Shown here piece by piece: positions 13,389-63,364 of a stretch of DNA of 64,000 nucleotides. Source of the stretch: Gammaproteobacteria bacterium (lineage in GTDB: Bacteria; Pseudomonadota; Gammaproteobacteria; Steroidobacterales; Steroidobacteraceae); NCBI GenBank assembly GCA_027459765.1, contig DAIDHD010000003.1:157569-221568 (forward strand). Reading direction: 5' to 3'. How positions within the stretch are numbered: the first letter of the stretch is position 1; each line of letters begins with the position of its first letter. The translations under genes were made by a program, and so were the position numbers. Below the pieces are notes generated by a model. That model had not been told where the DNA came from, did no database searches, and saw nothing but the letters and a program-made list of their open reading frames with translations.

Positions 13389-13577
13389 TTAAGGATATCA
13401 TGCGAGATTCCGAGTTAACTTAAAGAGACCGCGATTTGACATTGCGGGACGGATTGTCGACTTCGGTCACGGTCGCTCGGCGGGGATTGTCCGATACTTT
13501 TGAGGCTGTTACGGGCATCGACGCCGCCGTTCGCGAGGGCATCCTCGTACAAGGAACCGCGGCTCCACGGACGAGGC

Positions 13578-15709: not shown

Positions 15710-15777
15710 TGGGTCCGTCGTACGACCGTCAAGCGAGTTACTATAGCGAAGCGAGGGGGAGTGCCGGGAGGCGAGGC

Positions 15778-17848: not shown

Positions 17849-17888
17849 ACGTCATCGTTAGCGCGGTTCGGGGCAACCGGGACCGGCG

Positions 17889-19685: not shown

Positions 19686-19842
19686 GGCGCGCGACGTTAC
19701 CACACTTGGTTTTCGCGACGCAGATCACGCCCGCAAACACCGGCAACCGGTCGATGGCGCGGCTTTCGCCCGACCCCGTCGGATTCTGTAAGATACGCGG
19801 CCGGGCGTCGACGAGTCGCGATAGACTCCGCAGGCTGAACCT

Positions 19843-23131: not shown

Positions 23132-23146
23132 GCGTCACCGGCTCTC

Positions 23147-24340: not shown

Positions 24341-24364
24341 TCCCCGTGAACGCAACCGGACACC

Positions 24365-27030: not shown

Positions 27031-27040
27031 GATTCCGCTC

Positions 27041-31445: not shown

Positions 31446-31585
31446 CACTGACGGTCCTTCGAGCCACCCGGAGGCGCGAACGCCCGGCCCATGCGGGATC
31501 TTGCGCCCACGCTCGCCGACGACGCAAGCCGGCCGACCGCAGGGACGTTCGCCGGCGAGAGCTCCCTGCCGATACGGCGCCAGAC

Positions 31586-33358: not shown

Positions 33359-33601
33359 AGTTCCTCTCCCGGTTCGAATCCGCGCGCGTGGCGCGGCCAT
33401 TCCCATGGCCACTCACGTGGAACCGCTCACACGCGGATTGAATCCGGGTGGCGATTCGCCATAACACCATGCTGAGGCCGGGCAGGTTCGCGCGGCAAAT
33501 CGTCTCCGAACGGCGACGAGCCACCACTTCGCGGAAGTACGGTAAAGATGCTTCGCACCGGCGGGAGATGGAAAATCGTGCGCCAGATCCGGAAGCAGAG
33601 A

Positions 33602-34654
33602 TCAATTTACGTGATTCGGGTCACGCACCGCCGGAGAGAATTCTGCTGATTCGAACTGTCGAGCCGAGGGTGCGTTCGTAACCGTCCCCTCGAAACCGTG
33701 AACGTAGGCACTGAGATCTACGGCGTAGAGCTGCTCCCAACCCAACCCGCGAATGTGGATGAGACCCCGATCGAAATACGGATAGCGGTGACGACTCTCG
33801 GCATCGTCGACCGTCACCTCGGTGCCGCTCTCCGCGAACAGCCTTTGAAGCTGACCGTCGATCTCCTGCAATTTTCCCCGCTGGTCAAGCGCGTCCCAGA
33901 GCCTCGCCTGCATGGGCGCCCATACCAGATGCAAGGTAAACCCGTACTGGCGACTCAGCGCGCAGAATTCGCGCATGATTGCCTGCGCCTCGGGCCTCAC
34001 GACATCGGATTCCTCGACTTTGCTGGTGAAAAGCGCCTCGTCGATCGAGGAATCCCGGAATTCATCGAGAACGGGCGATGCAGCCGGCGTCTCCGGGGCG
34101 ATCCAGATGTCGTTGCCCGGGCGGCGCAACAGACTGAACAACGGCTCCCAGATCCTGGTGGTCACCGAAAGTGCCGCAGGACGCCACGAATAATCGACGT
34201 ACCCCGGATAATTGCTCCGTAGGAACGCCTTCTCGTCCGGACGGGTGAATACGCTCCCGACGTAATATTCGAACATCGACTTGTCCATCGGATACGTGAA
34301 AACGCCGCGCGAGGCCGCAATCACGACGTGTCGGGGCCGGTGGCCGCTCTCGAGATAGCGTTTCAGCAGGAACAACGAACTGGGCAATCCCGCGAATGCA
34401 TGGGTCGTCAGGTCTGCCACCTCACCGGGCTCCCCGATGCGATATTTGTGCGCAACGTTGTGGGTCACGCTGTCACCCAACAGGACTACGGGGTAGGACC
34501 GCCCGTCGTGCAGAACCGCATTGGCCAGATCGTCCACGTTGTGCCGATGCAGCGTAACTCCACCCAACGCAGCCGCAAGCGCCTCCGCAATCAACGCCAG
34601 AAACAACGCCGAAAGGGGCAATCGTTGCAGGAAGAATCTGGTCCAGGGGGACAC
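33602..34654 (-). CDS. Membrane-anchored SGNH-hydrolase-like protein (module A)
   Basis: N-terminal TM, YPVVLLGDSVTHNVAHKY (GDS motif), C-terminal FDRGLIHIRGLGWEQL. Confidence 0.65.
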   Translation of the reverse strand: MSPWTRFFLQRLPLSALFLALIAEALAAALGGVTLHRHNVDDLANAVLHDGRSYPVVLLGDSVTHNVAHKYRIGEPGEVADLTTHAFAGLPSSLFLLKRYLESGHRPRHVVIAASRGVFTYPMDKSMFEYYVGSVFTRPDEKAFLRSNYPGYVDYSWRPAALSVTTRIWEPLFSLLRRPGNDIWIAPETPAASPVLDEFRDSSIDEALFTSKVEESDVVRPEAQAIMREFCALSRQYGFTLHLVWAPMQARLWDALDQRGKLQEIDGQLQRLFAESGTEVTVDDAESRHRYPYFDRGLIHIRGLGWEQLYAVDLSAYVHGFEGTVTNAPSARQFESAEFSPAVRDPNHVN

Positions 34655-34677
34655 GGCGGCGGTCTCCGTCAGTCAGG

Positions 34678-36165
34678 TCAGAATTGGAAATATAGGAACG
34701 TTCTCGGCTCGCCGAGCCAACCCAATGAGAGCCAGAGCATGCCCGCGCATACCATGGCGGTGCGATAGGAGGGTTTGATTGCGCCGGGATTCGCGACCGG
34801 ATTCGGCAAGAGAAGCGACAGCGGACCGAGCAATACCAGCAACGAGACGAAGTGAGCGGTGAAATTCGCCGCTTGAAAGACGTCGAAGAAGGTCACCGGG
34901 AGCCCGAGCGTACGCGCAATCCCGTCGGCCCAGAGCGGCAGGACCAACGCCCGATCCGGCATGAACATCGACTTCAGGATGGCGTGCGCCTGCGCAAGAC
35001 TGTCGGACCTGAAGTAGACCAACGTCACCAGGATGTTCAGCATCGTCAACAGCCAACCCAGCGGTTTCGGCAACGTCGGCATTTTCGCCTCCCGCCAGCC
35101 ATGATTGATGAGCAAGCCGATGCCGTTGACCAGGCCGAAGACGATGAACGTCCAACCCGCACCGTGCCACAGCCCGGAAGCGAGGAACGTAATGAACGTG
35201 GGCAAGGCAATACAAAGCGCGAAGGCCGTCACCGGCCGAATCTGGCGATCCGCGACGAACCGGTGCGCCGCCAAGGCGAGGGGCGAGTAGCAATACATCG
35301 TGAAGAAGCGCGTCATCGTGATGTGCCAGCGCTTCCAATACTCGATCATGCTGGTGGCGGCGAAGGGGATGTTGAAGTTGAAGGGCAGAACGAACCCGAA
35401 CATCAACCCGAGACCCACCGCCATGTCCGAGTACCCGGAGAAATCGAAGTACAATTGCAACGCGTAGCCGATCGCAGCGCTCCACGCCTCCAGGAACTGC
35501 AGGTGCAGAGGCCATTGGAACGCAGTGTCTACGAACTTGGCGAGGCTGTCCGCCAGGGCGACCTTTTTGAAAAGACCGTAGCAGAACAGCGCGAATCCGG
35601 GACCAAAGCTCGCGGCATTGATGATCCGCCCCGACGCCACTTCGCTCAGCTGACGGCCCATCTCCCGATGCAACACGATTGGGCCCGCGATCAGCTGTGG
35701 GAAGAACATCACGAACAGCATGTACTGCGGAAGCGGCGGAACATCCTCCTCGCCGTCAGATACATCCGTCAGATAGGTGATCTGCTGGAAGGTATGGAAC
35801 GATATGCCGAGAGGGACGAATAGAGCCGCAAGGTGGAATTGCACCCCGGTGATGACGCCGAGATTCTCGAGAAAGAAATTGCGGTATTTGAAGTAACCGA
35901 GCAGCAGGAGATTGAAGGCGATTCCGACCCACAGCAGGGTGCGGCTCTGAGTTCGGCTCAGGCCCCGCGCGAAGGCGTAATTCACCAGGATCTGCGACAG
36001 CAGCAGCGCGAGATACTTGACGCTCCAGTAGCCGTAGAAGACTGTCGACGCGACGAGCAGGAACCAGATGCCGTAACGCCCGCCGGCGAATCGCCTTATC
36101 GAATGAAACAGGAGGAGCGAGATGGGCAGGAAAGCGAATACGAAAACCGGATCCGTAAAGAGCAT
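34678..36165 (-). CDS. MBOAT O-acyltransferase (AlgI-like; module A)
   Basis: MLFTDPVFVFAFLPISLLLFHSIRRF...LQLYFDFSGYSDMAVGLGLMFGF...FITFLASGLWHGAGWTFIVFG. Confidence 0.95.
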   Translation of the reverse strand: MLFTDPVFVFAFLPISLLLFHSIRRFAGGRYGIWFLLVASTVFYGYWSVKYLALLLSQILVNYAFARGLSRTQSRTLLWVGIAFNLLLLGYFKYRNFFLENLGVITGVQFHLAALFVPLGISFHTFQQITYLTDVSDGEEDVPPLPQYMLFVMFFPQLIAGPIVLHREMGRQLSEVASGRIINAASFGPGFALFCYGLFKKVALADSLAKFVDTAFQWPLHLQFLEAWSAAIGYALQLYFDFSGYSDMAVGLGLMFGFVLPFNFNIPFAATSMIEYWKRWHITMTRFFTMYCYSPLALAAHRFVADRQIRPVTAFALCIALPTFITFLASGLWHGAGWTFIVFGLVNGIGLLINHGWREAKMPTLPKPLGWLLTMLNILVTLVYFRSDSLAQAHAILKSMFMPDRALVLPLWADGIARTLGLPVTFFDVFQAANFTAHFVSLLVLLGPLSLLLPNPVANPGAIKPSYRTAMVCAGMLWLSLGWLGEPRTFLYFQF

Positions 36166-36447
36166 TCATGTGCCTCTATCGGATTTGCGCGAACTCTTAT
36201 TGACGGCCGCGAACAGATGGCTCGTCATCTCGCCGACGTTGCCGAGTCCGTTGATGTCGCGGGCCCGCAGGCGCACGTTGAGCCTTTTCTCGCAGGCCAG
36301 GATGATCTTGATCTGCTGAAGGCTGTCCCAGCCGGGGATGTCGGCCGCCGTCGTCGTGTCGGTCAGCACCAGGGAGTCGTTGCCGAAGACCGTGCGAAAG
36401 ATGTCCTGCAGGATGCCTTGCACTTCGCCGCGCGTCAGTTCACTCAT
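36166..36447 (-). CDS. Acyl carrier protein (module A)
   Basis: MSELTRGEVQGILQDIFRTVFGNDSLVLTDTTTAADIPGWDSLQQIKIILACEKRLNVRL; intact DSL. Confidence 0.92.
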   Translation of the reverse strand: MSELTRGEVQGILQDIFRTVFGNDSLVLTDTTTAADIPGWDSLQQIKIILACEKRLNVRLRARDINGLGNVGEMTSHLFAAVNKSSRKSDRGT

Positions 36448-38255
36448 TATTTCAACCGCCTGTCGATGATGGTCATGTAATGTGGTTGCGGATCCGCGCC
36501 TTCGGCGGAGCGCCGCCACGGCGCGGATTCACCGGTACTCTCGAAGCCGAGTTGGCGAAGGATCGGCGGGAGGATGACGTTCTTCTCGGTGGGCGTATGC
36601 ACGCATTCGATCATCGTGCAACCGTGGGAGCGTGCGTTCGTCCGAAGAGTCTCCAGCATCACGTTCTCGAGTCGCCGCCCGAAGACGCGACAGCTCATGA
36701 CCCAATTGGCGACCCGTAGGATGCCGTTTCCCGGTACCGTCACCGCGATGGCGACGATGCCGTAATCCTGCAGGCGATCCGCCAGCCGAATCGCCACCAC
36801 GTCGCGCGCACCGGCGAGTATTTCCGCCTCGGAGAAGATGGACAGATTCAGCTTGAATTGATTGGTTTTTCGGATGAGCTGAACTATCCGATCGACCGTA
36901 CTGGCATCGACCGCCTCGACATGCGCCACTGGCTGCAATCCGCTGAGAAATCGATCCATGTCCGTCCCGGACTCGGCGGACGCCTCCTGCAGGGCTGCGA
37001 TGGTGCGATAGGAGGCACCACGCCCGAGATCCTCACGCGTCAACGCGCGCAGAGGAAACGCCTTGGCGGAATCCAGCGCATGGACATAATGTGCCGGATC
37101 CTCCGGCATCTCAACGACCATCACCTCAGGCAACTCCGAGCGGACGAGACTTCGTTCGACCGGGTTGTCATCGACGAAAACCAGGCTGTCCAGGCCGAGA
37201 TTGAGGGTGCGCGCGATGTGGCGCAAATTCGATGCCTTGTCCTCGAAATTCGCCACGAAACAGGCGATGTCCTCCTCCTTGAGAACCATGCCCGAATGCT
37301 CCCGGAACGGTGCTCGCGCCACCTCCTCGCGATTCTTGGAGCAAACCGCCAAGATGACCCCGCGGCCGGCGAGCTGGCGAACGTATTTCTGGAAATTCGC
37401 GAATGCCTCGCCATCTGCGGTTTCCTGGCCGAGTTCGATGCCTTGCAGACCATCGTCTCCGACGACACCGCCCCACAGGGTATTGTCGAGATCCAGCACC
37501 AACACCTTCCTGGCACGTCCCAGTAGACCGGCGAGTGCCGCAACCAGGGTGTGTGCGATCTCCGGCAGTGCATCCATGGAGTACGGCTGTTTGCACAGAT
37601 GATAGAGACGCTGGTCCAACCATTTCGCCGCGCCTACCCGGAATTGAAGCGCCTCGGCATCGACGATCGCCGTGGTCGCCGGCAGGCGGGAAGCGAGTTG
37701 CTGGTTGATCGATCTGACGTGCCAGCCTAGGCCACCGGGCGCAAGGCCGTCCTGCTCGTCCAGGATTCGGTGCGGCGGCATGTCGAACCCCATGACCACC
37801 GTCGGAACGCGGCTGCGCTCGATGAGCGATATCCAAAAATCGGCCTCGCGTTGCACCAATGCACGCGCCTCCTCGGCGGTCGACCCGATTGGCGGCGGAA
37901 ACTGGATGTCGCGGTGATCGAGGATCAGAAAGCAGGCGTCACAGTTCTCGGGGCCGAGATCGACATCGCCAAGCAGACCCCGCACCAGTCCACCGTATTG
38001 ACCGGCATTGACGGAAGCTCCAAAACCGCTGCGCAAAAGCATCAGCTTCAGGTGGTCCGCCAGATAATCCGTGGTGACATTGCCGAGCACGCGTACCCGA
38101 AGCGGCTTCAATCCGTCCACCGCCAAGAGATCCATTCGCTTGAGGGCCGCTACGATCGGGTCGACTTCCCCCTCATGAGCGCCCGGCACTCGCAGTCCCA
38201 GCGCAGCTTGAATCCACTTGTTCAATTCCGAGGAACCCGTCGCCATGCCGTACAC
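36447..38255 (-). CDS. FkbH-like HAD-IIIC family protein (module A)
   Basis: RKVLVLDLDNTLWGGVVGDDGLQGIELG, VCSKNREEVA, FVDDNPVERSLVR, C-terminal TNQFKLNLSIFSEAEI. Confidence 0.93.
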   Translation of the reverse strand: MYGMATGSSELNKWIQAALGLRVPGAHEGEVDPIVAALKRMDLLAVDGLKPLRVRVLGNVTTDYLADHLKLMLLRSGFGASVNAGQYGGLVRGLLGDVDLGPENCDACFLILDHRDIQFPPPIGSTAEEARALVQREADFWISLIERSRVPTVVMGFDMPPHRILDEQDGLAPGGLGWHVRSINQQLASRLPATTAIVDAEALQFRVGAAKWLDQRLYHLCKQPYSMDALPEIAHTLVAALAGLLGRARKVLVLDLDNTLWGGVVGDDGLQGIELGQETADGEAFANFQKYVRQLAGRGVILAVCSKNREEVARAPFREHSGMVLKEEDIACFVANFEDKASNLRHIARTLNLGLDSLVFVDDNPVERSLVRSELPEVMVVEMPEDPAHYVHALDSAKAFPLRALTREDLGRGASYRTIAALQEASAESGTDMDRFLSGLQPVAHVEAVDASTVDRIVQLIRKTNQFKLNLSIFSEAEILAGARDVVAIRLADRLQDYGIVAIAVTVPGNGILRVANWVMSCRVFGRRLENVMLETLRTNARSHGCTMIECVHTPTEKNVILPPILRQLGFESTGESAPWRRSAEGADPQPHYMTIIDRRLK

Positions 38256-38572
38256 CTGAGAGACGCCGCAACACCATGCAAGTAGTTTCTGCCATTATTG
38301 TGAAGGGTGGAGGACACGCGAGCCCTCGTCCCCGATCCCGAGAACGCCCAGGACAGGCGCCGCTCCGAGTCGACACCCCGTGCTACTCAAGAAACAATCG
38401 CCGACGCAATGATGCATGGAATGGAAGCGATTGTCGGATTTAACAGCGTTGCCGTGCCCGTGGCACCGGCCTGCAATGAAGAATCGGGCGCAATACTAGG
38501 GAATCGACGGCAGATTGTCTATGACCCCGTAGGTGCCGCACGACCACAATTCGTCAAGGTCACCAATATCTT

Positions 38573-39682
38573 ATGTCACGCACACGAGACCTATTCACCG
38601 GCATTCAGTACCTACGCGGCGTCGCCGCGCTGATGGTCGCCTTTCTCCATCTGCCCGTGCAGCTTCCCGCGTACGCGCCCTTCTTTCTCACGAATCGGAT
38701 CTTTGACACCGAGCGACTGAAAGCCGGCGTGGACGTCTTCTTCGTCATCAGCGGCTTCATCATGTACGTCACCAGTCGTGAGTCGCGGCCTTGGGATTTC
38801 GCGATCCGTCGGATCATCCGGATCGTTCCACTCTACTGGTCCTTGACCGGCCTGCTCGTCGTCGTCGCCGTGGCACGACCGGCGCTGTTTCACAGCACCG
38901 CGGTCTCAGGGGAATATATCTTCAAAAGCCTGTTATTCATCCCCTATTCCAATCCGACTCAAGGTGGGCACCTTGCACCCATCCTGGTGCCCGGATGGAC
39001 ACTGAATTTCGAGATGTTTTTCTATGCCGTATTCACACTCATCTTATTCTTTCCCGCAAGATTCCATCTTGCGCTTTCCGGATGTGTTTTTCTGCTCGTT
39101 CTGGCGGTAGAGCGAGCGCTGGCCGCGACGATTGGCCTGTCCCCGTTGTCGTTCTACGACAATCCGCAGATCCTCGAGTTTTGGACGGGGATGCTGATCG
39201 GATACACGCAGGTGCATCGACCCATCCGTCTGCCGGGAGAAGCATGCTGGCTCCTCATCCTGGGCGGGTTCTTTCTTTTAACCGCAAGCTACAACCTGCT
39301 GCCTCCAACGCTGCTCTTTCTCAAGGACTCGATCTGGAGCTATCTGATTCCGGCGACCACGATCGTCCTTGGTGTCGTGGCGCTGGAGAACACCCGCCGC
39401 ATTCGTGCATACGCATTCCCGCTGCTGATCGGCGACGCTTCGTACTCTATTTATCTGAGCCACGTATTCGCTCTCGGCGTCGTGCGCAGCCTTTGGACGC
39501 GACTGCCCGTTTATCGGATCGACTCGACTCACGCCGCGGAGTTTCTGGTGGTCGGAATGCTCTCGGTGGTAGCCGTTGGAGTACTCATCTTTCGGGCGGT
39601 GGAAAAACCGATGCTGACGCGGTTACAGTCGTGGTATCGGAACTTCGTCCTCGCTACACATAGGATGCGCGTCGTCAATTGA
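38573..39682 (+). CDS. Acyltransferase family 3 (OafA/ExoZ-like)
   Basis: IQYLRGVAALMVAFLHLPVQLP...GVDVFFVISGFIMYVTSRE. Confidence 0.92.
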   Translation: MSRTRDLFTGIQYLRGVAALMVAFLHLPVQLPAYAPFFLTNRIFDTERLKAGVDVFFVISGFIMYVTSRESRPWDFAIRRIIRIVPLYWSLTGLLVVVAVARPALFHSTAVSGEYIFKSLLFIPYSNPTQGGHLAPILVPGWTLNFEMFFYAVFTLILFFPARFHLALSGCVFLLVLAVERALAATIGLSPLSFYDNPQILEFWTGMLIGYTQVHRPIRLPGEACWLLILGGFFLLTASYNLLPPTLLFLKDSIWSYLIPATTIVLGVVALENTRRIRAYAFPLLIGDASYSIYLSHVFALGVVRSLWTRLPVYRIDSTHAAEFLVVGMLSVVAVGVLIFRAVEKPMLTRLQSWYRNFVLATHRMRVVN

Positions 39683-41043
39683 CTTCCAGGCAAGCCCTAC
39701 CCGCTCGACCCCTCAAGGTTCCGGCCGCTCAACGGTGGGTCGCGGACCAGCGCCTCGAGAAGGTGACCGTGTCGATCATCTGGATGCTCCTGATCCTAAT
39801 GACCGTCCCGAAGGACTTCGTCAGCCTGGTGGCCAATCCGCCGGCCCCCGCGCTGTCGAAGGCCGGCGCGCTGATCAACTCGGGACTTTGGGTGGCACTG
39901 CTGGCCGTCGCGAGCTCCGTCGTACTGTGGCGACTGCGGGTCGCACTGCTCCTAGTGCGGCAGATGAACCTCATGTTCCTGCTGTTCTTCGCGCTCGTGT
40001 TCGCCAGCATCCTGTGGTCCGCGGCGCCCGGCATCACCATTGACCGGTTTCGCCGGATTCTCAGCATACTCATGTGTTGCCTCGCCGTGATGGTGGTCGG
40101 GTGGCATCCGCGTCGTTTCCAGGAACTCTTGCGCCCGATCGTCACTTTCCTGTTGGCAGGATCGATCATCTACGGGATCCTGTTCCCGCAGCTTGCCATC
40201 CACCAGTCCGTACAGATTGAATTGAAGGGTGCCTGGCACGGACTCACGTTCCAGAAGAACATCCTCGGGGGCCTCGCGACCTACGGAGTCATCCTGTGGT
40301 TCCACGCGTGGCTGGGAAGGGAGACGACCTTGGCCAAGGTGGCCTTCGGGCTCGCGGTATCCGTCGCATGCCTCGTCCTGTCGCACAGTTCGACCTCGCT
40401 GTTGACCACCGCCTTCTCTGTGATTTTCCTTTTATTCAGCCTCCGCTCGCCGCCTAACATGCGGCGGTTCACGCCCTACCTCGTCGCGTTGTTCGTGTTG
40501 CTGGTCGCGGCATACTCCTGCGCCGCGTTGGGTCTCGTTCCGGCGCTCAAGTCGCTACTCGACCCCATTACGGCAGTGACCGGCAAGAACGCCGCCGACG
40601 CGAGCGGAAGGGCTCCGATCTGGGCTTTGATCAAGGCGGAAATCGCCCGGCATCCGTATCTCGGCATCGGCTACGGGGCCTATTGGACCGGCCCGGTGCC
40701 GGGCACGCCATCTTACGTTTTCGTAACAGCGATCTACTTCTACGCCGGCTCAGCCCACAACGGCTATCTGGAAGTGACGAACGACCTTGGATTCGTGGGG
40801 CTTGCGGTACTGATCGGCTACGTCGTGAACTACGTCAAGCAATCGCTGGCGATATGGCGAATCGACCGGCCGGAGGCGGCCTTATTCCTCGTGCTCCTAT
40901 TCCAACAGGGTCTCGAGAATCTCTCCGAAGCGGAGTGGTTGCAGGGTACTGCGATGAATTTCGTCATCCTGACGCTCGCGACCTGCGCAATGGCTCGCGG
41001 ACTGTTGAATCAACGTCTCGCCGTATCCCGTGTGGCGTCGTGA
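39679..41043 (+). CDS. O-antigen ligase/polymerase family (Wzy/WaaL-like)
   Basis: Multi-TM, GLTFQKNILGGLATYGVILW, HPYLGIGYGAYW...SAHNGYLEVTNDLGFVG; TTG start overlapping upstream stop. Confidence 0.88.
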   Translation: MTSRQALPARPLKVPAAQRWVADQRLEKVTVSIIWMLLILMTVPKDFVSLVANPPAPALSKAGALINSGLWVALLAVASSVVLWRLRVALLLVRQMNLMFLLFFALVFASILWSAAPGITIDRFRRILSILMCCLAVMVVGWHPRRFQELLRPIVTFLLAGSIIYGILFPQLAIHQSVQIELKGAWHGLTFQKNILGGLATYGVILWFHAWLGRETTLAKVAFGLAVSVACLVLSHSSTSLLTTAFSVIFLLFSLRSPPNMRRFTPYLVALFVLLVAAYSCAALGLVPALKSLLDPITAVTGKNAADASGRAPIWALIKAEIARHPYLGIGYGAYWTGPVPGTPSYVFVTAIYFYAGSAHNGYLEVTNDLGFVGLAVLIGYVVNYVKQSLAIWRIDRPEAALFLVLLFQQGLENLSEAEWLQGTAMNFVILTLATCAMARGLLNQRLAVSRVAS

Positions 41044-41212
41044 CGGCGTCCCTGAGGTAGGCGCGGGCGGACACCAATTCAGCGCCCATATTCGCAAACC
41101 AAGCCGCCGGCCGTTGACAAGGGAACTCGATTTCGGATGCAATCCACAGGAGGGGGCAGCCGTCGACGCTTAATCACACCCCTACCCACCCGGCTTCCAT
41201 CTCGAATCAATC

Positions 41213-42256
41213 ATGGATCAAGCATTACCAGCGAGCGATCGGCGCTCCGGCTCAATGACTTTGCCCAGCTACTGCGCGGCGTCGATCCTGCTCTTTCTCG
41301 GGTTGATGGGTGCCTTCAAGTCGATCGAGATCGGCACGGAACTGAGTTGCTGGGCGGGTGGATACTCGATGGACGCGTGGCTCGCCTACTGCAATTCCAA
41401 GCGGTACGGGGTCTACGACGTCGAAGCGGTTTGGCACCGGATCGAATCGGAAGTGGCGTCGCGGATCGAGTCGGCTCGCGTGCTGACGTTGAGCGACAGC
41501 CACCTGCAGAGCGCATTGTCCCTCGGCGGCGCCGGCGCGTGGTTCGCGGCACATGGATATCCCGCCTACTTCCTCGGTTTGCCGACCGCCGAGAGCGGAT
41601 TCGGCGAGCGATTGATCGACAACTTCCACCCGCATCCCCGAGTGCTGATCCTGGATGCGAGCCCCTATTTCACGGGCGACTTCGGCGCCTTCGAACGCGG
41701 CATCTTCGAGGACCCCGCCGCCTCGCGCGCCGCGGTCGCGGCGCTCGCGGCCTTCCAGGCGCGGCACCACGACTTCTGCGAGTCATTTCCATGGGCCTGC
41801 GGGCATACGTTCGCCTACTTTCGCTCGCGCGTCGACGGGCACTGGATCTTCCCGGCTCCCTCGAACGACATCTGGATCGGTGCGAATGACGTTCCCAACG
41901 ACGACCGGCGCTTTCCCGTGGGCAAGATGCGGAACGAACTGTCACCGCTCTATCCGAAGTACCTCGAAGCCGCCCGCCGGCTCGTGTCCAAGGTGAATTT
42001 GCCGCCACGCTGCATCGTGATCACCAACGTTCCCGCCGAGCAGGATCTTCCAGATTTGGCGGAATATGTGGGGCAGGGACTCGGGGCGACGGTGATCGTT
42101 CCCCGGGTTCAGGGTCTGGCGACCTTCGACCGGGCACACCTCACGCCGGAGAGTTCGACTCGCTGGAGCCAGGCTTTCCTTGCGGAACTGGAACCCGTGC
42201 TGCACGAATGCGGCGCGGGCGACGATTCGACCGGCCGAAGCAACGAGGGTCTTTAG
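41213..42256 (+). CDS. Membrane-anchored SGNH-hydrolase-like protein (module B)
   Basis: N-terminal TM; VLTLSDSHLQSALS (GDS-like) and C-terminal FDRAHLTPESSTRW (DxxH-like). Confidence 0.6.
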   Translation: MDQALPASDRRSGSMTLPSYCAASILLFLGLMGAFKSIEIGTELSCWAGGYSMDAWLAYCNSKRYGVYDVEAVWHRIESEVASRIESARVLTLSDSHLQSALSLGGAGAWFAAHGYPAYFLGLPTAESGFGERLIDNFHPHPRVLILDASPYFTGDFGAFERGIFEDPAASRAAVAALAAFQARHHDFCESFPWACGHTFAYFRSRVDGHWIFPAPSNDIWIGANDVPNDDRRFPVGKMRNELSPLYPKYLEAARRLVSKVNLPPRCIVITNVPAEQDLPDLAEYVGQGLGATVIVPRVQGLATFDRAHLTPESSTRWSQAFLAELEPVLHECGAGDDSTGRSNEGL

Positions 42257-42259
42257 ACT

Positions 42260-44158
42260 ATGCGCGTCCTGGACATGCTCTGGCTCAGCCCACCGCCAGC
42301 CAACCTCAGTACGGAGCTGCGCGCGCTCGCGGCCGCACCGACCCCCCCATGGAGCGACCTCGTGCGTTTGGCGAATACGCGCCTCGATTTCGTTCAGACG
42401 AATCGACTGGACAAGGCGCTCGCCCGCGCCTCGACCGAGGCTGCGGCCGGTGGTGCCTGGCGCAGCCTGAACCTCGCGGTTCTGGGATCCTCGACCGTCG
42501 ACCATCTGCTTCCGGCGCTGCGGGTGGCCGCCTTGCGCCGGAATCTGCACGTACGAACCCTCGTCGGCGACTACGGCATGTACCGGCAATCCATCCAGGA
42601 CCCGGATTCGGCCCTGTGGGCGTTTCGTCCGGACGTGCTGCTACTCGCCTTTGATGCGACTCACCTCTTCGGACGTCACGATCCGGGGCTGGGGGCGGCG
42701 GAGGCCGAGGCGCTGCTGGACTCCGTGACCGGCCGCATCACGGCGCTCTGGGAACAGGCGCGTGCGCGCATGACCGGTCAAATCATCCAGCAGACGGTGC
42801 TGCCGGTTTTCCACACGCTGATCGGCTCGAACGAGCATCGGCTGCCCGGGTCGGTCGCCACGCTGGTTTCCCGCCTCAACCGTCGCCTGGTCGAGGCGGC
42901 TGCCCAATCGGGCGTGGACATTCTCGATTTGGACGCTGCGGTGCTGCGCGACGGGCTGGCGGCCTGGCATGACCCGGTGCTCTGGCATCGCGGCAAGCAG
43001 GAAATCTCGCCGCTGGCGACGCCGGCCTACGGCGACCTGGTGATGCGGTTGGTCGCAGCCCAGCAGGGGCGTTCGGCGAAGTGCCTCGTGCTGGATCTCG
43101 ACAACACTCTGTGGGGCGGCGTCATCGGCGACGACGGCCTCGAAGGTCTGCGCCTGGGCCAGGGCAGTGCCCTCGGCGAGGCTTACGTTGCCTTTCAGAG
43201 CCATGTGCGCGCGCTCGCGCAGCGGGGCGTGATCCTGGCGGTGTGCTCCAAGAACGATCTCGAGAACGCCCGCTCACCGTTCGAAAAGCATCCGGACATG
43301 GTTCTGAAACTCGACGACATCGCCTGTTTCGTCGCCAACTGGAACGACAAGGCGGCCAATATCCGGCAGATCGCGGAGCGCCTGAACATCGGCATCGATG
43401 CGCTCGTGTTCGTGGATGACAATCCCTTCGAACGCAACATCGTGCGACGCGAGCTCCCGTCGGTCTGCGTTCCCGAAATGCCCGAGGATCCAGCCCTGTA
43501 CGCGCAATGTCTCGCCGATGCCGGCTACTTCGAGGCGCTGCGCCTGACCCAGGAGGACCTCGAACGGGGGGGACAGTATCGAGCGAATCTTGCGCGAGAA
43601 GACCTGCGCGCCTCGCATACCGATCTGGAGGGCTATCTCAAGAGTTTGGCCATGGAACTGCGCTGGCAACCGTTCGACCGGCTCGGGTTACAGCGCGTCG
43701 TCCAGCTGATCAACAAGACCAATCAATTCAATCTGACGACGAGGCGTTACACGGAAAACGACGTTCTCGCGATCATGCACACACCGGGCGCGCTCACTCT
43801 GCAGTTGCGTCTCCTCGATGCCTTCGGCGACAACGGAATCATCGGCATCGTGATCGGCAAGCCGGAAGGCCCGGTGATCCGGCTGGATACCTGGCTCATG
43901 AGTTGCCGGGTGCTCGGACGACAGGTCGAGGAGGCGACGATGAACCTCGTCGCCGCCGAGGCGGTGCGGCTCGGTGCGACGCGGCTGCTCGGCGAATATC
44001 TGCCGACGAAGAAGAACGGGATGGTGCGCGACCACTACAGGAACCTCGGCTTCGCGGAGATCGAAGCGCGCGAGGACGGCGCCACCGTCTGGTCGCTCGA
44101 CCTGACGCAATTCCGGCCGTTCGACACATTCATACGACTCACCAGGAGCGACACGTGA
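42260..44158 (+). CDS. FkbH-like HAD-IIIC family protein (module B)
   Basis: KCLVLDLDNTLWGGVIGDDGLEGLRLG, VCSKNDLENARSPFEKH, FVDDNPFERNIVRREL, TNQFNLTTRRYTENDV. Confidence 0.95.
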   Translation: MRVLDMLWLSPPPANLSTELRALAAAPTPPWSDLVRLANTRLDFVQTNRLDKALARASTEAAAGGAWRSLNLAVLGSSTVDHLLPALRVAALRRNLHVRTLVGDYGMYRQSIQDPDSALWAFRPDVLLLAFDATHLFGRHDPGLGAAEAEALLDSVTGRITALWEQARARMTGQIIQQTVLPVFHTLIGSNEHRLPGSVATLVSRLNRRLVEAAAQSGVDILDLDAAVLRDGLAAWHDPVLWHRGKQEISPLATPAYGDLVMRLVAAQQGRSAKCLVLDLDNTLWGGVIGDDGLEGLRLGQGSALGEAYVAFQSHVRALAQRGVILAVCSKNDLENARSPFEKHPDMVLKLDDIACFVANWNDKAANIRQIAERLNIGIDALVFVDDNPFERNIVRRELPSVCVPEMPEDPALYAQCLADAGYFEALRLTQEDLERGGQYRANLAREDLRASHTDLEGYLKSLAMELRWQPFDRLGLQRVVQLINKTNQFNLTTRRYTENDVLAIMHTPGALTLQLRLLDAFGDNGIIGIVIGKPEGPVIRLDTWLMSCRVLGRQVEEATMNLVAAEAVRLGATRLLGEYLPTKKNGMVRDHYRNLGFAEIEAREDGATVWSLDLTQFRPFDTFIRLTRSDT

Positions 44159-44412
44159 CCAAAGACGAGGTATTTTCGGAGGTTCGGGACATCATTGCCG
44201 ACGTGCTCGAACAGCCCGACCTGAAGCTGGATGCGGGCACCCGGGCCGATGACGTCGATGGCTGGGACTCGTTCAATCACATCAACATCGTCGTCGCCGT
44301 CGAATCCCGCTTCAAGATCAAGATCAACACGGCGGAGATCGAGGAATTGCGCAACGTCGGCGAACTGGTCGATCTGGTGGAGCGCAAGGTCAACAAATCG
44401 AAATCCAGCTGA
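44155..44412 (+). CDS. Acyl carrier protein (module B)
   Basis: MTKDEVFSEVRDIIADVLEQPDLKLDAGTRADDVDGWDSFNHINIVVAVESRFKIKI; GTG start overlaps fkbH stop. Confidence 0.93.
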   Translation: MTKDEVFSEVRDIIADVLEQPDLKLDAGTRADDVDGWDSFNHINIVVAVESRFKIKINTAEIEELRNVGELVDLVERKVNKSKSS

Positions 44413-44428
44413 ACGGTCTTTCCGCCGC

Positions 44429-46072
44429 ATGCTTTTCAATTCGAACGTATTCGTCTTCGGCTTCCTGCCGATAGCGATTCTCGGGTTCTATCTGCTCGCT
44501 TGGCGGGGCACCCCGGCGGCGAAGGTTTGGCTGTGCGCCGCATCCTTCGTGTTCTACGGCTGGTGGAACCCGGCGTTCCTGGTACTCCTGGCGGGCTCGA
44601 TCGCGTTCAACTACTCCCTCAGTCTTTTGGTCAAGGACGTCGACTCCGATCCGGGACCCGCGCAGTCATTGCTGCTCGCCGGCGGCGTGGCCGCGAACCT
44701 CGCGCTTCTGTTCTATTACAAATACCTCTTTCCGCTGCTCGGGTTTCTGCATCACCTCGGTTGGACGGCGACCGATCCGGGCTCCGTGATCCTCCCGATC
44801 GGCATCTCGTTCTTCACGTTCACGCAGATCGGGTACCTGGTGGACTGCCGGCAGGGATTGGTCAAGGAGCGCGGTCTGCTCAATTACCTCCTCTTCGTGA
44901 CGTTCTTCCCGCACCTGATCGCCGGACCCATTCTGCACCATCGGGAAATCATGCCGCAGTTCGCCGATTCGGCGACCTATCGATTCAAGGCGGCCAACCT
45001 TGCGAGCGGCGTCACGCTGTTCGCCTTCGGTCTCGCGAAGAAGGTGCTGCTGGCCGACCGGATCGCCCCATGGGCGGAACAGGGCTTCGGGCATGCCGCC
45101 GGCATGCCATTCGTCCAATCGTGGTCGGTGTGTCTCGCGTATTCGATGCAGTTGTACTTCGACTTCTCGGGCTACTCCGACATGGCAATCGGCCTCGGAA
45201 TCATGTTCGGAGTGCGACTCCCGCTCAATTTCAACTCCCCCTACAAGTCGTCTTCCGTGATCGAGTTCTGGCAGCGCTGGCACATGACGCTGACGCGGTA
45301 CCTGACGCTGCTGCTTTATAATCCAATGTCGCTCGCCGTCAATCGATGGCGCCAGTCGAGAGGCCTGCCGACGGGCCGCCAGGCCGCCGCGACCCTGGCG
45401 GGATTCGGCTCCATGCTCGCCTTTCCGACGATCACGACCATGCTGATCGCCGGGGTCTGGCACGGCGCAGGCTTCCAATTCATCATTTATGGCCTGCTCT
45501 TCGGCACGTACCTGTGCGTGAATCACGCGTGGCGAATCTGGTTTCCGCCGGCGTCCCGACAGGTGGCGCGATCAACCACAGGTGGCCTCTGGCAGGCCTT
45601 CTGGCCGGTGGCGCTGACCTATCTCGCGGTTCTGGTCACACAGGTCTTCTTTCGCGCCGACGACGCGTCTGATGCGGTGCAGTTGGTCGCGGGCATGGCC
45701 GGCATGCACGGCAGCGGCCTGCCCTTCGCGATTCCGCTAAACGACTTGAGGTTTTTCGGCCCCACCGGGCCCTGGCTGCTCGATCACGGCTGGATCAGGG
45801 TGGCGGCACGCGAGATCTACAACACGATGACGCTGCCCCTCGCGAAGAATCTCACGCTCGCGCTATGTCTGGCGGCGATCGCCTTCGCCGCCCCGAACGT
45901 CTATCAGATCATGGGAGACTGGTCCCCGGCGCTGAACAAGGTCAAGGCGAGTACCACGTGGTCCCTGCGCTGGGCACCGACGTGGCCCTGGGCCATCCTG
46001 ACCGGGGGTCTGCTGTTCGCTGCCTGCCTGCGATTCGACCATCCGGCGCGCTTTCTGTATTTCCAGTTTTGA
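44429..46072 (+). CDS. MBOAT O-acyltransferase (AlgI-like; module B)
   Basis: MLFNSNVFVFGFLPIAILGFYLLAWR...LQLYFDFSGYSDMAIGLGIMFGVRLPLNFNSPYKSSSVIEFWQRWHMTL...AGVWHGAGFQFIIYG. Confidence 0.96.
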   Translation: MLFNSNVFVFGFLPIAILGFYLLAWRGTPAAKVWLCAASFVFYGWWNPAFLVLLAGSIAFNYSLSLLVKDVDSDPGPAQSLLLAGGVAANLALLFYYKYLFPLLGFLHHLGWTATDPGSVILPIGISFFTFTQIGYLVDCRQGLVKERGLLNYLLFVTFFPHLIAGPILHHREIMPQFADSATYRFKAANLASGVTLFAFGLAKKVLLADRIAPWAEQGFGHAAGMPFVQSWSVCLAYSMQLYFDFSGYSDMAIGLGIMFGVRLPLNFNSPYKSSSVIEFWQRWHMTLTRYLTLLLYNPMSLAVNRWRQSRGLPTGRQAAATLAGFGSMLAFPTITTMLIAGVWHGAGFQFIIYGLLFGTYLCVNHAWRIWFPPASRQVARSTTGGLWQAFWPVALTYLAVLVTQVFFRADDASDAVQLVAGMAGMHGSGLPFAIPLNDLRFFGPTGPWLLDHGWIRVAAREIYNTMTLPLAKNLTLALCLAAIAFAAPNVYQIMGDWSPALNKVKASTTWSLRWAPTWPWAILTGGLLFAACLRFDHPARFLYFQF

Positions 46073-46108: not shown

Positions 46109-47107
46109 TTGTCAAATGTGTCAACGCAACGACAGTCGCTAACGTCCGGTTCGCTCGCTAGAATCGCGCCGGTGAAAATCACGAGCCCGCCGCGGATCAG
46201 CGTTTGCATCCCGACGTTCCGGCGCAATGACCGGCTGCGGGCCGTACTCGACGATCTGGCGAAACAGCACCGCGCGCCGGACCAGGTCGTCGTGGTCGAT
46301 AACGAACCGAACGGCGGGAGCCGGACTGTCATCGAGGCGTTTCGGGCGACCCGCCCCCCGTTCCCGATCGACTACGCGATTCAGCCGGAACCGAACATCG
46401 CGATCACTCGCAACAGGACCGTGGAACTCGCGACGGGCGACTGGCTCGCCTTCGTCGACGACGACGAGCGTGCGCCCCCCGACTGGCTGGATCGGCTTTT
46501 CGAGGCCGCCGTGCTGAACCACGCGGATGGCGTATTGGCACCCGTCGAGCCGCAGGTCCCGGAAACCGCTCCGCGATGGATCCGGCGGGGCAAGTTCTAC
46601 GATTTCCCCCACCAGCCCGAAGGCGCGGAGGTGCCGCTCAACTGCATGCGCTTCGGCAACGTGCTGCTTCGCACCGAAATGCTGCGGGCGGAGCCGGGCC
46701 CTTTCGATCCGGCCTGTGGCCTGATGGCCGGCGAGGACGTTGACCTGCTGGTTCGCTTGGCGCGCAAGGGGGCGAGAATCGTATGGACCGAGCGCGCGCC
46801 CGTTTACGAGCCGATCGAGTCGAAGCGGCTGTCGTTGCGCTGGCTGTTGCTGCGCGGTCTAAGCGGCGGGCAGTCTTTCGCCCGCTACACGTTGCAAGGA
46901 GGATTTCGTCCGATCAGCCTGGGCGGTCGAATCGCGTTCGTCCTGCGTTCCGTGCTGCAGATGTTCGTCGCTCTCGGGTTGGCGCTGCCGGCCGCCATGG
47001 CCGGCCGGCACCGCGGCGCAGCATGGCTGGTCAAGGCCTGTGCCAACTTCGGCAAGATCACGGTATTGTGGGGGTGGCGTTATCGCGCCTACGCGCGACG
47101 CGGCTGA
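46109..47107 (+). CDS. Glycosyltransferase family 2
   Basis: ISVCIPTFRRNDRLRAVLDDLAKQHRAPDQVVVVDNEPNG...WLAFVDDDERAPPDWLD; start may be a downstream GTG. Confidence 0.9.
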   Translation: MSNVSTQRQSLTSGSLARIAPVKITSPPRISVCIPTFRRNDRLRAVLDDLAKQHRAPDQVVVVDNEPNGGSRTVIEAFRATRPPFPIDYAIQPEPNIAITRNRTVELATGDWLAFVDDDERAPPDWLDRLFEAAVLNHADGVLAPVEPQVPETAPRWIRRGKFYDFPHQPEGAEVPLNCMRFGNVLLRTEMLRAEPGPFDPACGLMAGEDVDLLVRLARKGARIVWTERAPVYEPIESKRLSLRWLLLRGLSGGQSFARYTLQGGFRPISLGGRIAFVLRSVLQMFVALGLALPAAMAGRHRGAAWLVKACANFGKITVLWGWRYRAYARRG

Positions 47108-49346: not shown

Positions 49347-49415
49347 GCGCAAGTCCGACCGGACTTGGCCGCCGGACCGCTCGAAGCCGCGCGTTTCACA
49401 TAAACGGGGATGGTC

Positions 49416-49655
49416 CTACTGCGGGAAGCTTTCGTAGAGCTTGACGAAATCCCCGAAGGTGACCGGGAAATCATTCGCCGCCTCGAAAGGGTCGAAGCCG
49501 AGCGCATCCTCCAGACGCGCGACCACCAGCGCGAAGCTGAGCGAATCGAGGCCGGAGTCGAGCAATTTGACATCATCGGTCAACGGCGCAAGTCTGCGCT
49601 GTTGTTCGTCGGCCACCTGCCGAAAGACCTGGTCGATGGTCGCTCTCACCGTCAT
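49416..49655 (-). CDS. Acyl carrier protein (third, standalone)
   Basis: MTVRATIDQVFRQVADEQQRRLAPLTDDVKLLDSGLDSLSFALVVARLEDALGFDPF; intact DSL serine. Confidence 0.88.
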   Translation of the reverse strand: MTVRATIDQVFRQVADEQQRRLAPLTDDVKLLDSGLDSLSFALVVARLEDALGFDPFEAANDFPVTFGDFVKLYESFPQ

Positions 49656-49826
49656 TTTTCACCCCCCTTGCGCTTCTGGTGCCGTCCTGCCGAGAACCGT
49701 CAACTCGGCTATCATTACATGAACGAGACGGCAGTATATAAGCGTCGGTCACGGTTTTGTCGTCGCCGGGACGGCGTAAGTACCCGACGGCGCGTCGTGG
49801 TCGCACCGCTCGAGGGACGGAGAGGC

Positions 49827-51629
49827 TTGTCAATCCCAGAGCAACAAACGAATTCCGACGGCCTCGTGCGGCGGGCGCTGCGGGCATGGGCGCGGGATCG
49901 GCAACTGAGCCTCATTCGGCGCATCCAGAAGGGACTCGCGCTCGTCGGACAGCTGCTACGCGCCCGGTTCGAACTCGCGCGCTGCAGCCGGGTCGGTCGC
50001 CGAGCACGCGTGGCGGGCCGCTTGCAGGTCGAAAATCTCGGCATCATCGAGATCGGTGATCACCTCAACGTGAACTCGACGTGGGTGCCGGTGGAATTGC
50101 ACGCCGGCCCGCTCGGCCGGATCGATGTCGGTCACGACGTGCTCATCAACTTCGGCACGGTGATCGCGGCGGCAAAGAGCGTCAGTATCGGCAGCGGTAC
50201 GATGATCGGGCCGCACTGCATTATCTCCGACGTCGAAATACCAGAAGCAGCCGTTTCGCTCGCGCCGACGCTCGCCAAGCCGATCGCGATAGGCCAAGGT
50301 GCGTGGCTGGCGGGGCGCGTAACCGTCCGGCCGGGGGTGAAGATCGGCGATGGCGCGGTCGTGGTGGCGGGCAGCATCGTCGAAACGGATGTTCCCGCCG
50401 GTGCCATGGCGAGCGGCATACCCGCCCGGCCGCTACCGAAGTTCGACGCGACGGCTGCCGAGCTCGCGCGAACGCGCGCGGCACTCAATCCGGGTCGATC
50501 CGTATCGGTGGCGACGCAAGCCGCCGTTTGCGCGGAGGCCGCCCCTTCCGCGGGTCCCCGCGGGAACCTGATCGCGGATTTCGTCATCGAGGAGTTGGTC
50601 CACGAGTTGGCGCAGAGCGATGCGAATCCGGCCGTGACGGCGACCGCGCTGCCCGCGTACCTGCCCGGTCAGTCCTTGGTTCCCACCACACCGTCGGCGG
50701 CGAAGGACTTCGCGGTCATCTGGACCCGACCGGAGGTCGTCGCGCCGTCTTTCACGCGACTGCTGGCAGGAGAATCGGTCCCGGAGAAATCGCTGCTCGC
50801 GGAAGTCGATGCGTTCTGCGCGCTGGTCGAACAAAGCGCGGTATTCCATCGCTTCGTGTTCGTGCCGACTTGGAGCGCGCCGCCGCACGTGCGCGGCGCG
50901 GGCCTGCTCGACACTGGGCCGGGCGGGATCGCAGCGGGACTTGCCGCGATGAATGCGCGTTTGATCGCAACGGTGGGTCGCCGCAACAACGTCTTCGTGC
51001 TGAACGCGCAACGCTGGCAAGCGACCGTCGGCGCGCGCAGCTACAACCCGCGTGCATGGTATCTGGGCAACATGGCAATGGCGCGGCCCTTTGTGGCCGA
51101 GGCCGCTCGGGACCTGCGGGCGGCGCTCGCGACGTTGCTCGGCCGACAGCGCAAGCTGCTGGTACTCGCGATCGACGACGTCCTGTGGGATGTGCCTGAC
51201 CCGGCTGCAGGCACCGACGTTGCGATTATGAGGGCCTATGCGGATTTCCAGCAGGCGCTGCGCGAGTTGCGGCGTCGCGGAGCACTGCTCGGCATCCTGA
51301 CGACTGCCACGCGGGCCGGTTCATTGCCGAGCGCCGGCGCGCATGAGGGCGTTCGCCTGCACGATACGGACTTCGTCGGCTGCTGCGAAGAGGACGGCGA
51401 TCCGGGGCGGGCTCTCGCCACCTGGCTGGCGCGACTCGGCCTCGAAGCGGATTCGGCCGTCTATGTCGACTCGCGCGAGACGCATCGCACGCGCGTGCGG
51501 GCCGCGCTGCCCGCGCTGCACGTGCCTGATTGGCCCGGCGACAAGTTCCTGTATCCGAGCGCCCTGCAGGCGTTGCCGTGTTTCGATCGCGCGCCACTGA
51601 CCCACGATCGCCTGGCTGCGGCGCAATGA
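49827..51629 (+). CDS. LbH (hexapeptide) acyltransferase fused to a degenerate FkbH/HAD-IIIC-like domain
   Basis: N-term hexapeptide region (LGIIEIGDHLNVNSTWVPVELHAGPLGRIDVGHDVLINFGTVIAAAKSVSIGSGTMIGPHC); C-term GRQRKLLVLAIDDVLWDVPDP...SAVYVDSRETHRTRVRAALP aligns with FkbH motifs; TTG start proposed. Confidence 0.75.
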   Translation: MSIPEQQTNSDGLVRRALRAWARDRQLSLIRRIQKGLALVGQLLRARFELARCSRVGRRARVAGRLQVENLGIIEIGDHLNVNSTWVPVELHAGPLGRIDVGHDVLINFGTVIAAAKSVSIGSGTMIGPHCIISDVEIPEAAVSLAPTLAKPIAIGQGAWLAGRVTVRPGVKIGDGAVVVAGSIVETDVPAGAMASGIPARPLPKFDATAAELARTRAALNPGRSVSVATQAAVCAEAAPSAGPRGNLIADFVIEELVHELAQSDANPAVTATALPAYLPGQSLVPTTPSAAKDFAVIWTRPEVVAPSFTRLLAGESVPEKSLLAEVDAFCALVEQSAVFHRFVFVPTWSAPPHVRGAGLLDTGPGGIAAGLAAMNARLIATVGRRNNVFVLNAQRWQATVGARSYNPRAWYLGNMAMARPFVAEAARDLRAALATLLGRQRKLLVLAIDDVLWDVPDPAAGTDVAIMRAYADFQQALRELRRRGALLGILTTATRAGSLPSAGAHEGVRLHDTDFVGCCEEDGDPGRALATWLARLGLEADSAVYVDSRETHRTRVRAALPALHVPDWPGDKFLYPSALQALPCFDRAPLTHDRLAAAQ

Positions 51630-52420
51630 GCCGGATTGACGCATCCCAGAGCGCGGATGAAACCGGCGTACTTCGTCGACTGCGTGGCGTCCTCGGCTTG
51701 CACGGACGCACGCGGCTGGGGCGCGGCACCATCCTCGAAGGCCGGCTCGACGTACGCAACGACGGTGAACTGATCACGGGAGCCGGGTGCCTTCTGCGCT
51801 CCCGCCCGACGCGAAGTCATTTCGTGATCGAGCGCGGCGCCAGCGTGATCATCGGCGACCGCGTAAGAATCTCCTACGGCGCGGCGGTCTCGGCCCAGCG
51901 CGAGATCGTCATCGGCAGCGACACCCGGATCGGTCCGTTCTGCACGATCCTCGACAACGATTTTCATCGGGTTGGCGACCGGGAATCTCCCGGGCTGATG
52001 GCCCCGGTGCTGATCGGCCGCAACGTGACCATCGGCGCTCGGGTGACGCTGCTGCGTGGTGCGCGAGTCGGTGATGGCGCGCGGATCATGAGCGGCAGCT
52101 GCGTCTATGGCGTGATCCAGGCCGACTCGACCGTATCCGGGGTGCCCGCGCGGGCCGCCGGGCGGGACACGACGCAAAAGCACGGCGCAATGGTGGCGGC
52201 CATCGTTCGGCGGCTCTTCGGCATGACGAGCGCGCCGGGCCCGTTGGAGGAACTTGCAGGCATCCCAGGCTGGCAGCCGCTCGGACCGCTGCGCCTGTTG
52301 CTGGCGCTCGAGGAATCCTTCCCCGCCACGCTCACGCTCGAGCACGTCGGCGCTTGCCGCACGGTGGCCGACGTCGCCAAATTGCTGAGGACCTCGCCGC
52401 CCGCTTCACGCCTCGACTGA
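51626..52420 (+). CDS. LbH (hexapeptide) acyltransferase with C-terminal ACP-like domain lacking the Ppant serine
   Basis: IGDRVRISYGAAVSAQREIVIGSDTRIGPFCTILDNDFH...IGRNVTIGARVTLLRGARVGDGARIMSG; C-term IPGWQPLGPLRLLLALEESFPATLTLEHVGACRTVADVAKLL; ATG overlaps upstream TGA. Confidence 0.78.
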   Translation: MSRIDASQSADETGVLRRLRGVLGLHGRTRLGRGTILEGRLDVRNDGELITGAGCLLRSRPTRSHFVIERGASVIIGDRVRISYGAAVSAQREIVIGSDTRIGPFCTILDNDFHRVGDRESPGLMAPVLIGRNVTIGARVTLLRGARVGDGARIMSGSCVYGVIQADSTVSGVPARAAGRDTTQKHGAMVAAIVRRLFGMTSAPGPLEELAGIPGWQPLGPLRLLLALEESFPATLTLEHVGACRTVADVAKLLRTSPPASRLD

Positions 52421-62455: not shown

Positions 62456-62594
62456 TTTGCGTCTCCCGCAAAAGCCTGAAGTGTTACCTATGTGCCCGGA
62501 ATACCCCGTTATAGTAAGCGTCCGGCCAACCCATCTGTTTAGAGCGCCCTGGACATGCCTAGGATGTACCTTCGCACAAGCGCGAGGTGTACAC

Positions 62595-63307: not shown

Positions 63308-63364
63308 AGAAAAGACCGTAAATATGGCTGTCGATTGCGCTGCCGATGTGGCAGGATCGAGGCC

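Follow-up and report, generated by a model that had tools for sequence, protein, structure and literature searches.

Two divergent gene modules, here called A and B, lie inside an exopolysaccharide (EPS) cluster of the Wzx/Wzy type in a gammaproteobacterium of the family Steroidobacteraceae (contig DAIDHD010000003.1, positions 157,569 to 221,568; this stretch of 64,000 nucleotides is called the window). Each encodes an FkbH-family protein, a stand-alone acyl carrier protein (ACP), a membrane-bound O-acyltransferase (MBOAT) and a membrane-anchored SGNH-like protein, and on the strength of these sequences we consider it likely that each module is a self-contained device for O-acylation of the polysaccharide of the surrounding cluster, with a glycerate ester as its product. 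The modules are probably Dlt-like in mechanism only, in that they would work like the Dlt system without being one. The donors described for MBOAT-SGNH acylation are acetyl-CoA and D-alanyl-DltC, and the combination FkbH-ACP-MBOAT-SGNH would represent a new, widespread form of this polymer acylation. We incline, by a modest degree, to the view that it constitutes a widespread third donor class, present also in Sinorhizobium meliloti, which esterifies exo- and capsular polysaccharides with glycerate from 1,3-bisphosphoglycerate (1,3-BPG) and uses no ATP-dependent ligase.

Two modules with FkbH, ACP, MBOAT and an SGNH-like protein

The original prediction had assigned eight genes to the two modules, and all of them were found at the same positions (Table 1), with the FkbH, ACP and MBOAT genes confirmed by NCBIfam and Pfam matches. 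Gene spacing, computed from the coordinates, is operon-like in both modules: from FkbH through ACP and MBOAT to SGNH, the genes of module A are separated by a 1-bp overlap, 0 and 23 bp, and those of module B, in the order SGNH, FkbH, ACP and MBOAT, by 3 bp, a 4-bp overlap and 16 bp. The FkbH-ACP-MBOAT order with overlapping or abutting genes that had been predicted for both modules is borne out by these coordinates (gaps of 0-16 bp). The genome encodes only two full-length FkbH proteins, one per module, and three MBOATs, two of which belong to modules A and B.

FkbH of module A consists of an SGNH-like N-domain, a HAD-IIIC domain and a C-terminal glyceryl-transfer domain, and FkbH of module B has a solved relative in the FkbH-like protein BF1531 (PDB 3slr, E 7e-72). 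In an alignment of 146 FkbH sequences plus a degenerate copy from the window, both proteins retain the HAD-IIIC residues DxDxT, K and DD, the residues of module A being DLDNT, SKN, K, DDN and SCR. Among the 63 FkbH proteins linked to an MBOAT, the catalytic D, D, T, K and DD show no or almost no variation, and the cysteine of the SCR motif in the C-terminal domain is present in modules A and B, in 63/63 MBOAT-linked proteins and in nearly all others. FkbH proteins without an MBOAT, including those of the polyketide synthase (PKS) or non-ribosomal peptide synthetase (NRPS) type, conserve both the HAD residues and this cysteine equally. We take this conserved cysteine to be the acyl carrier of FkbH. 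The phosphopantetheine serine is present in both ACPs, within GWDSL in module A and GWDSF in module B. For tetronate clusters, FkbH and a free ACP have been proposed to convert 1,3-BPG to glyceryl-ACP (PMC7489565).

Both window MBOATs contain the catalytic WHG and end in FLYFQF, an FXYXXF motif. This motif terminates nearly all complete FkbH-linked MBOATs and is found in unlinked MBOATs too, and it therefore marks the MBOAT-SGNH mechanism and not FkbH linkage. Its tyrosine has been shown to be acetylated in PatA, and the same acyl-carrier role has been reviewed for DltX (PMC12148441). MBOAT-SGNH pathways other than Dlt operate without a carrier protein, with acetyl-CoA as the usual donor (PMC12148441); unlike them, the FkbH-MBOAT loci described here include an ACP. 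The third MBOAT of the genome (L006:10776-13326, G000:C6) has the C-terminus FIYFQF and an SGNH-like open reading frame (ORF) after it; no FkbH or ACP was found in the 20 kb read around it, and it provides a comparison for the acetyl-CoA type from within the genome.

The SGNH-like proteins of the two modules show no detectable similarity and are not alignable, and neither gave a Pfam match at any threshold up to E 10. In the module B protein, Ser96, Asp306 and His309 are invariant in six proteins, and its AlphaFold2 model (predicted template modelling score 0.74) gave GDSL lipase 3p94 as the top Foldseek match (probability 0.99, E 5e-3). The translation of the module A protein shows an N-terminal transmembrane (TM) segment, GDS at residues 60-62 and a D....H motif (DRGLIHIRGLG) near the C-terminus. 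No relative of it was found among 148 related genomes, the SGNH protein of L184, a locus from the same genus, gave a weak local match around GDS (hhalign probability 20), and its AlphaFold2 model was poor (predicted local distance difference test score 46), so its fold matches were not used. SGNH identity, predicted earlier for both proteins, thus appears good for module B, through the invariant Ser-Asp-His and the lipase fold match, and stays at the level of motifs for module A.

Recurrence of the gene set in other bacteria

The surroundings of FkbH matches were searched with profiles made from the window proteins in 399 genomes of the phylum, drawn regardless of context. A same-strand MBOAT gene was located within 3 kb at 17 of 95 FkbH matches, far above the 0.23 expected given how many MBOATs these genomes encode, and an ACP gene within 700 bases at 48 of the 95. 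This neighbourhood comparison had been named beforehand as a check, and it shows that other genomes share the adjacency. A second sample comprised 80 named loci (81 FkbH) picked by FkbH similarity only, where a same-strand MBOAT accompanied 43/81 FkbH and an MBOAT together with an ACP 40/81. The set occurs in Stutzerimonas, Paraburkholderia, Sphingomonas, Novosphingobium, Ensifer, Massilia and Bryobacteraceae, and it recurs in several phyla. By a relaxed filter (N-terminal TM segment, [GAS][DNS]S and a late D-H motif), which is a heuristic with a loose motif, an adjacent SGNH-like protein was detected in 42 of 61 MBOAT-linked loci as against 14 of 500 genes from loci without an MBOAT; a strict motif filter recovered 6 of 62 loci only, since GSS or GNS replaces GDS in most.

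With F, A, M and S standing for FkbH, ACP, MBOAT and SGNH, the gene orders were M-F-A-S (14 loci), A-F-M-S (8), S-M-A-F (5), F-A-M-S (4), S-F-A-M (3), F-A-S-M (3) and others, and it is therefore the set that is conserved, not one inherited operon. The S-F-A-M order of module B was found in L176 from the same genus, L180 and L181 from the same family, L120 from the Betaproteobacteria and L153 from the Acidobacteriota, and the SGNH proteins of these loci are homologous to that of module B (E 5e-32 to 6e-120). The F-A-M-S order of module A recurs in L184 and in two Paraburkholderia.

On pSymB of S. meliloti (L173:8375-13410, CP140955.1), a set in the order MBOAT-SGNH-ACP-FkbH belongs to the rkp-3 K-antigen region described in PMC3557214, where its neighbors are RkpR and genes for ABC export. 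The SGNH-like gene is annotated there as a TonB-dependent receptor, yet its product has a TM segment and GGS and DPGH motifs. The position of the set next to K-antigen export genes supports a role in surface polysaccharides. FkbH matches were present in 40 Sinorhizobium plasmid records. Phage records held two distant FkbH only; a human-gut phage record (MT835480.1:71479-73152) encodes an FkbH-like protein that aligns over 88% of the query at 36% identity.

Phylogeny of FkbH and MBOAT

Trees were built with FastTree and contain several long branches, so only their broad pattern is to be trusted. The FkbH tree places the proteins of modules A and B in separate regions, not as sisters, and requires at least 15 changes of MBOAT linkage; FkbH domains in very large, PKS/NRPS-like proteins form a separate clade. 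On the MBOAT tree FkbH linkage is clustered, with 8 changes against 22.5 in shuffles. The MBOAT of module B lies firmly among FkbH-linked MBOATs and shares 65% identity with its relative in L180, whereas the third genomic MBOAT groups with unlinked ones. The nearest sequences to the module A MBOAT are FkbH-linked too, but it belongs to no starred set, and its position is uncertain because of its long branch (1.21).

A recent local duplication between the modules is not supported, as the FkbH proteins are 39% and the MBOATs 41% identical and the SGNH proteins cannot be aligned. FkbH is carried by only some genomes of the genus and, together with the lack of a relative for the module A SGNH protein, this patchiness suggests that modules A and B are accessory, exchanged modules. 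That both the MBOATs and the SGNH proteins differ between them suggests that the two modules serve two positions or two acceptor sugars.

These data bear on the explanation that FkbH and ACP make a small molecule or a cytoplasmic building block, while the MBOAT-SGNH pair performs ordinary acetyl-CoA-dependent O-acetylation and is adjacent by accident. Acetyl-CoA is indeed the usual donor of such pairs (PMC12148441), many FkbH-ACP pairs have no MBOAT, and one from Niveispirillum has a WcbI-type acyltransferase instead. However, the genes are interdigitated in several recurrent orders, with gaps of 0-16 bp in the FkbH-ACP-MBOAT run, the MBOAT lineages track FkbH linkage, the one genomic MBOAT with neither FkbH nor ACP in the 20 kb around it groups with the unlinked proteins, and no PKS or NRPS is among the annotated genes of the window. 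We therefore regard an accidental adjacency as clearly unlikely.

Proposed route and nature of the acyl group

In the glycerylation route that we favor, FkbH would bind 1,3-BPG, its HAD domain would remove the phosphate, and the D-glyceryl group would pass via a cysteine of its C-terminal domain to the phosphopantetheine of the stand-alone ACP. At the cytoplasmic side, the MBOAT would accept the glyceryl group from the ACP and, with the help of the histidine of WHG, shift it to the periplasmic face, onto the tyrosine in its own FLYFQF C-terminus. From there the membrane-anchored SGNH protein would take it onto its catalytic serine and use it to acylate a hydroxyl of either the polymer or the lipid-linked repeat, giving a glycerate ester. 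The glyceryl-ACP step is taken from the proposed role of FkbH and ACP (PMC7489565) and the later steps from MBOAT-SGNH systems (PMC12148441); the identity of the acyl group, all transfers and the acceptor are inferred from sequence evidence. The original prediction had put FkbH in the place of DltA and let the group pass from ACP through MBOAT and SGNH to the EPS, and this route gains support from the recurrence of the set, the intact FkbH residues and the shuttle motif.

Several points weigh against the glycerylation route. The identity of the acyl group is an inference, as is the pairing of donor and MBOAT, which is drawn from gene linkage, and in module A the SGNH assignment goes no further than motifs. 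Roughly one in two FkbH-ACP pairs from the named loci has no MBOAT, and FkbH-ACP therefore has other outlets too. S-adenosylmethionine (SAM) methyltransferases account for 8 of 68 neighbors in relatives, where VOC proteins or a sulfotransferase are also found, and the acyl group may therefore be modified there.

The same machine could accordingly carry another cargo, if glyceryl-ACP were first O-methylated, oxidized or reduced, or if FkbH loaded another C3 acid. SAM methyltransferases and VOC proteins accompany many A-F-M-S loci, PKS clusters tailor glyceryl-ACP to methoxymalonyl-ACP (PMC7489565), and glycerate is methylated and sulfated in suomilide (PMC13122637). Against this, no methyltransferase, VOC protein or dehydrogenase is encoded between the genes of either window module, and SAM methyltransferase, VOC and sulfotransferase genes are absent from modules A and B. 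For these modules we hold a different cargo to be rather unlikely; the acyl group is most simply glyceryl, and nothing points to lactyl. Among the loci of the A-F-M-S type, SAM methyltransferase and VOC-family genes occur at L130:9721-10881, L147:9812-10810, L169 and L170, which suggests a tailored, e.g., methylated, glyceryl group at these loci.

Some FkbH-ACP pairs without an MBOAT have other neighbors. On a Niveispirillum plasmid (L168:8905-11947), FkbH and ACP are accompanied by a polysaccharide acyltransferase of the WcbI type, which may be an outlet that needs no MBOAT; a sulfotransferase gene is near. In two loci of Rhodospirillales (L091:10217-14521 and L099:10210-14889), an MBOAT-less FkbH-ACP pair is followed by giant proteins that contain domains of glycosyltransferase families 2 (GT2) and 9 (GT9) and in which about 760-900 N-terminal residues are without assignment.

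The donor side was also considered, since the same cluster encodes two AMP-binding ligases (15445-17121 and 17889-19703) at a distance of some 14-18 kb from module A; if one of these AMP-forming enzymes loaded the ACPs, FkbH would have another role. Across loci, however, it is FkbH and not a ligase that constantly neighbors the ACP, the models matched by the two ligases are those of acyl-CoA ligases, and no DltA reached the cut-off, which makes loading by a ligase highly improbable.

Cluster context and a degenerate FkbH/ACP pair

The cluster is assigned to the Wzx/Wzy type because genes for a WcaJ-type priming transferase, Wza, Wzz, a chain-length ATPase, a GT2 protein and a Wzx-like flippase, the last named from its translation only, lie upstream of the modules. 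The AMP ligase gene at 17889-19703, on the minus strand, interrupts this otherwise plus-strand core. Module B is located on the plus strand after an acyltransferase-3 (AT3) gene and a Wzy-like gene and has a GT2 gene behind it, and module A diverges from it. Matches to PF04932 and PF01757 agree with the Wzy-like and acyltransferase-3 genes predicted between the modules; the AT3 protein is probably responsible for a separate O-acylation of the EPS. Scans for promoters and terminators gave nothing above chance.

Table 1. Features of the window discussed in the text
Feature	Position	Strand	Evidence
Module A SGNH-like membrane-anchored protein, probable final O-acyltransferase	33602..34654	-	350 aa; motifs from translation
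Module A MBOAT	34678..36165	-	495 aa; PF03062 E 3.7e-22; WHG; C-terminal FLYFQF
Module A ACP	36166..36447	-	93 aa; PF00550 E 1e-5; own ACP profile E 1.5e-25
Module A FkbH	36447..38255	-	TIGR01686 257 bits, E 1.6e-76
AT3	38573..39682	+	PF01757 E 2.1e-25
Wzy-like polymerase	39679..41043	+	PF04932 (Wzy_C) E 1.8e-14
Module B SGNH-like membrane-anchored protein	41213..42256	+	347 aa; homologues in same gene order
Module B FkbH	42260..44158	+	TIGR01686 307 bits; PF21211; PDB 3slr E 7e-72
Module B ACP	44155..44412	+	85 aa; NCBIfam ACP models; own ACP profile E 2.9e-29
Module B MBOAT	44429..46072	+	547 aa; PF03062; WHG; C-terminal FLYFQF
GT2, directly 3' of module B	46109..47107	+	PF00535 E 9.3e-21
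Hexapeptide acyltransferase fused to degenerate FkbH N and HAD domains	49410..51629	+	FkbH profile E 4.8e-59, Hexapep
Hexapeptide acyltransferase fused to degenerate ACP	51530..52420	+	ACP profile E 2.3e-5
EPS core: priming glucose-phosphate transferase, ligase, short-chain dehydrogenase/reductase (SDR), Wza, Wzz, chain-length ATPase, GT2, Wzx-like flippase	13500..25660	+	

A degenerate FkbH/ACP pair, the first gene of which has its real start downstream of the ORF start, is located 3 kb downstream of module B. In its FkbH part, DLDNT is changed to AIDDV, with the nucleophile Asp replaced by Ala, SKN is lost and the C-terminal transfer domain is missing; in its ACP part, the serine position is lost (GWDSL to GWQPL). 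The FkbH part is closest to a clade of FkbH proteins of about 570 residues without an MBOAT. The two genes at 49410-52420 encode a catalytically dead pseudo-enzyme pair in which both halves of the FkbH-ACP unit are retained.

Within the EPS region, positions 25657-33412 encode DUF1501 and DUF1800/Calx-beta proteins, a Ser-rich secreted protein resembling lipoproteins and a glycoside hydrolase family 9 endoglucanase, a combination that hints at beta-glucan in the EPS. Transposase genes (DDE_3, rve) lie at 60262-63466, near the contig end.

Novelty and implications

In the open-access literature searched, FkbH and an MBOAT come together only in work on cyanobacterial peptides of the aeruginosin type, in which each acts on a different part; sphingan patents fell outside the search. 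It yielded nothing on FkbH with polysaccharide and O-antigen, or on an MBOAT with SGNH and an acyl carrier protein, although such absence is no proof. The earlier statement that no characterized EPS pathway of this form was known is in line with this, as no description of the combination was found.

If the proposed route is true, surface polysaccharides would, through glyceryl-ACP as a third donor, be decorated directly from a high-energy intermediate of glycolysis. Glycerate esters on bacterial polysaccharides would gain candidate genes, the many FkbH genes outside polyketide clusters would gain a use, and cassettes would become available for the production of glycerylated polymers. The S. 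meliloti locus puts the question within reach of a genetic model organism.

Comparison with known systems

The description of the modules as Dlt-like, made in the original prediction, holds for the mechanism and not for membership. As in Dlt, a carrier protein would donate the acyl group to an MBOAT, an acyl-Tyr shuttle motif is present, and the predicted final transferase is of the SGNH type. Membership in Dlt was rejected on the evidence for DltA, DltD and DltB: the best genome match to DltA (TIGR01734) scored 102 bits against a cut-off of 560, DltD (PF04914) had no match in the genome while Bacillus and Lactococcus controls were positive, and the window MBOATs scored 152 and, for module B, 164 bits against the DltB cut-off of 375 (TIGR04091). 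In the modules, FkbH would load the carrier without an ATP-driven ligase, and the shuttle motif, borne by DltX in Dlt, is fused to the MBOAT, whose C-terminus would make a separate DltX unnecessary. Dlt D-alanylates teichoic acids, whereas the modules belong to a Wzx/Wzy-type EPS locus.

Gellan, which bears an L-glycerate ester (PMC9104527), matches the kind of product predicted here, namely a Wzx/Wzy polysaccharide esterified with glycerate. Its glycerate is the L form, as opposed to the D form expected from 1,3-BPG, and gellan was set aside as a direct precedent on this ground; the literature found assigns no gene to its glycerylation.

PatA-PatB and AlgI-AlgJ/AlgX, which O-acetylate peptidoglycan and alginate, respectively, share with the modules an MBOAT with a C-terminal FXYXXF and a TM-anchored SGNH-like partner (PMC12148441). 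They use acetyl-CoA and no carrier, whereas modules A and B have a dedicated FkbH and ACP. The tetronate and methoxymalonyl-ACP polyketide pathways, in turn, share the FkbH with intact HAD and SCR residues and the stand-alone ACP; the modules differ from them in having neither a PKS nor a FabH-like tetronate enzyme, and FkbH-ACP is partnered instead by an MBOAT-SGNH pair in a polysaccharide cluster.

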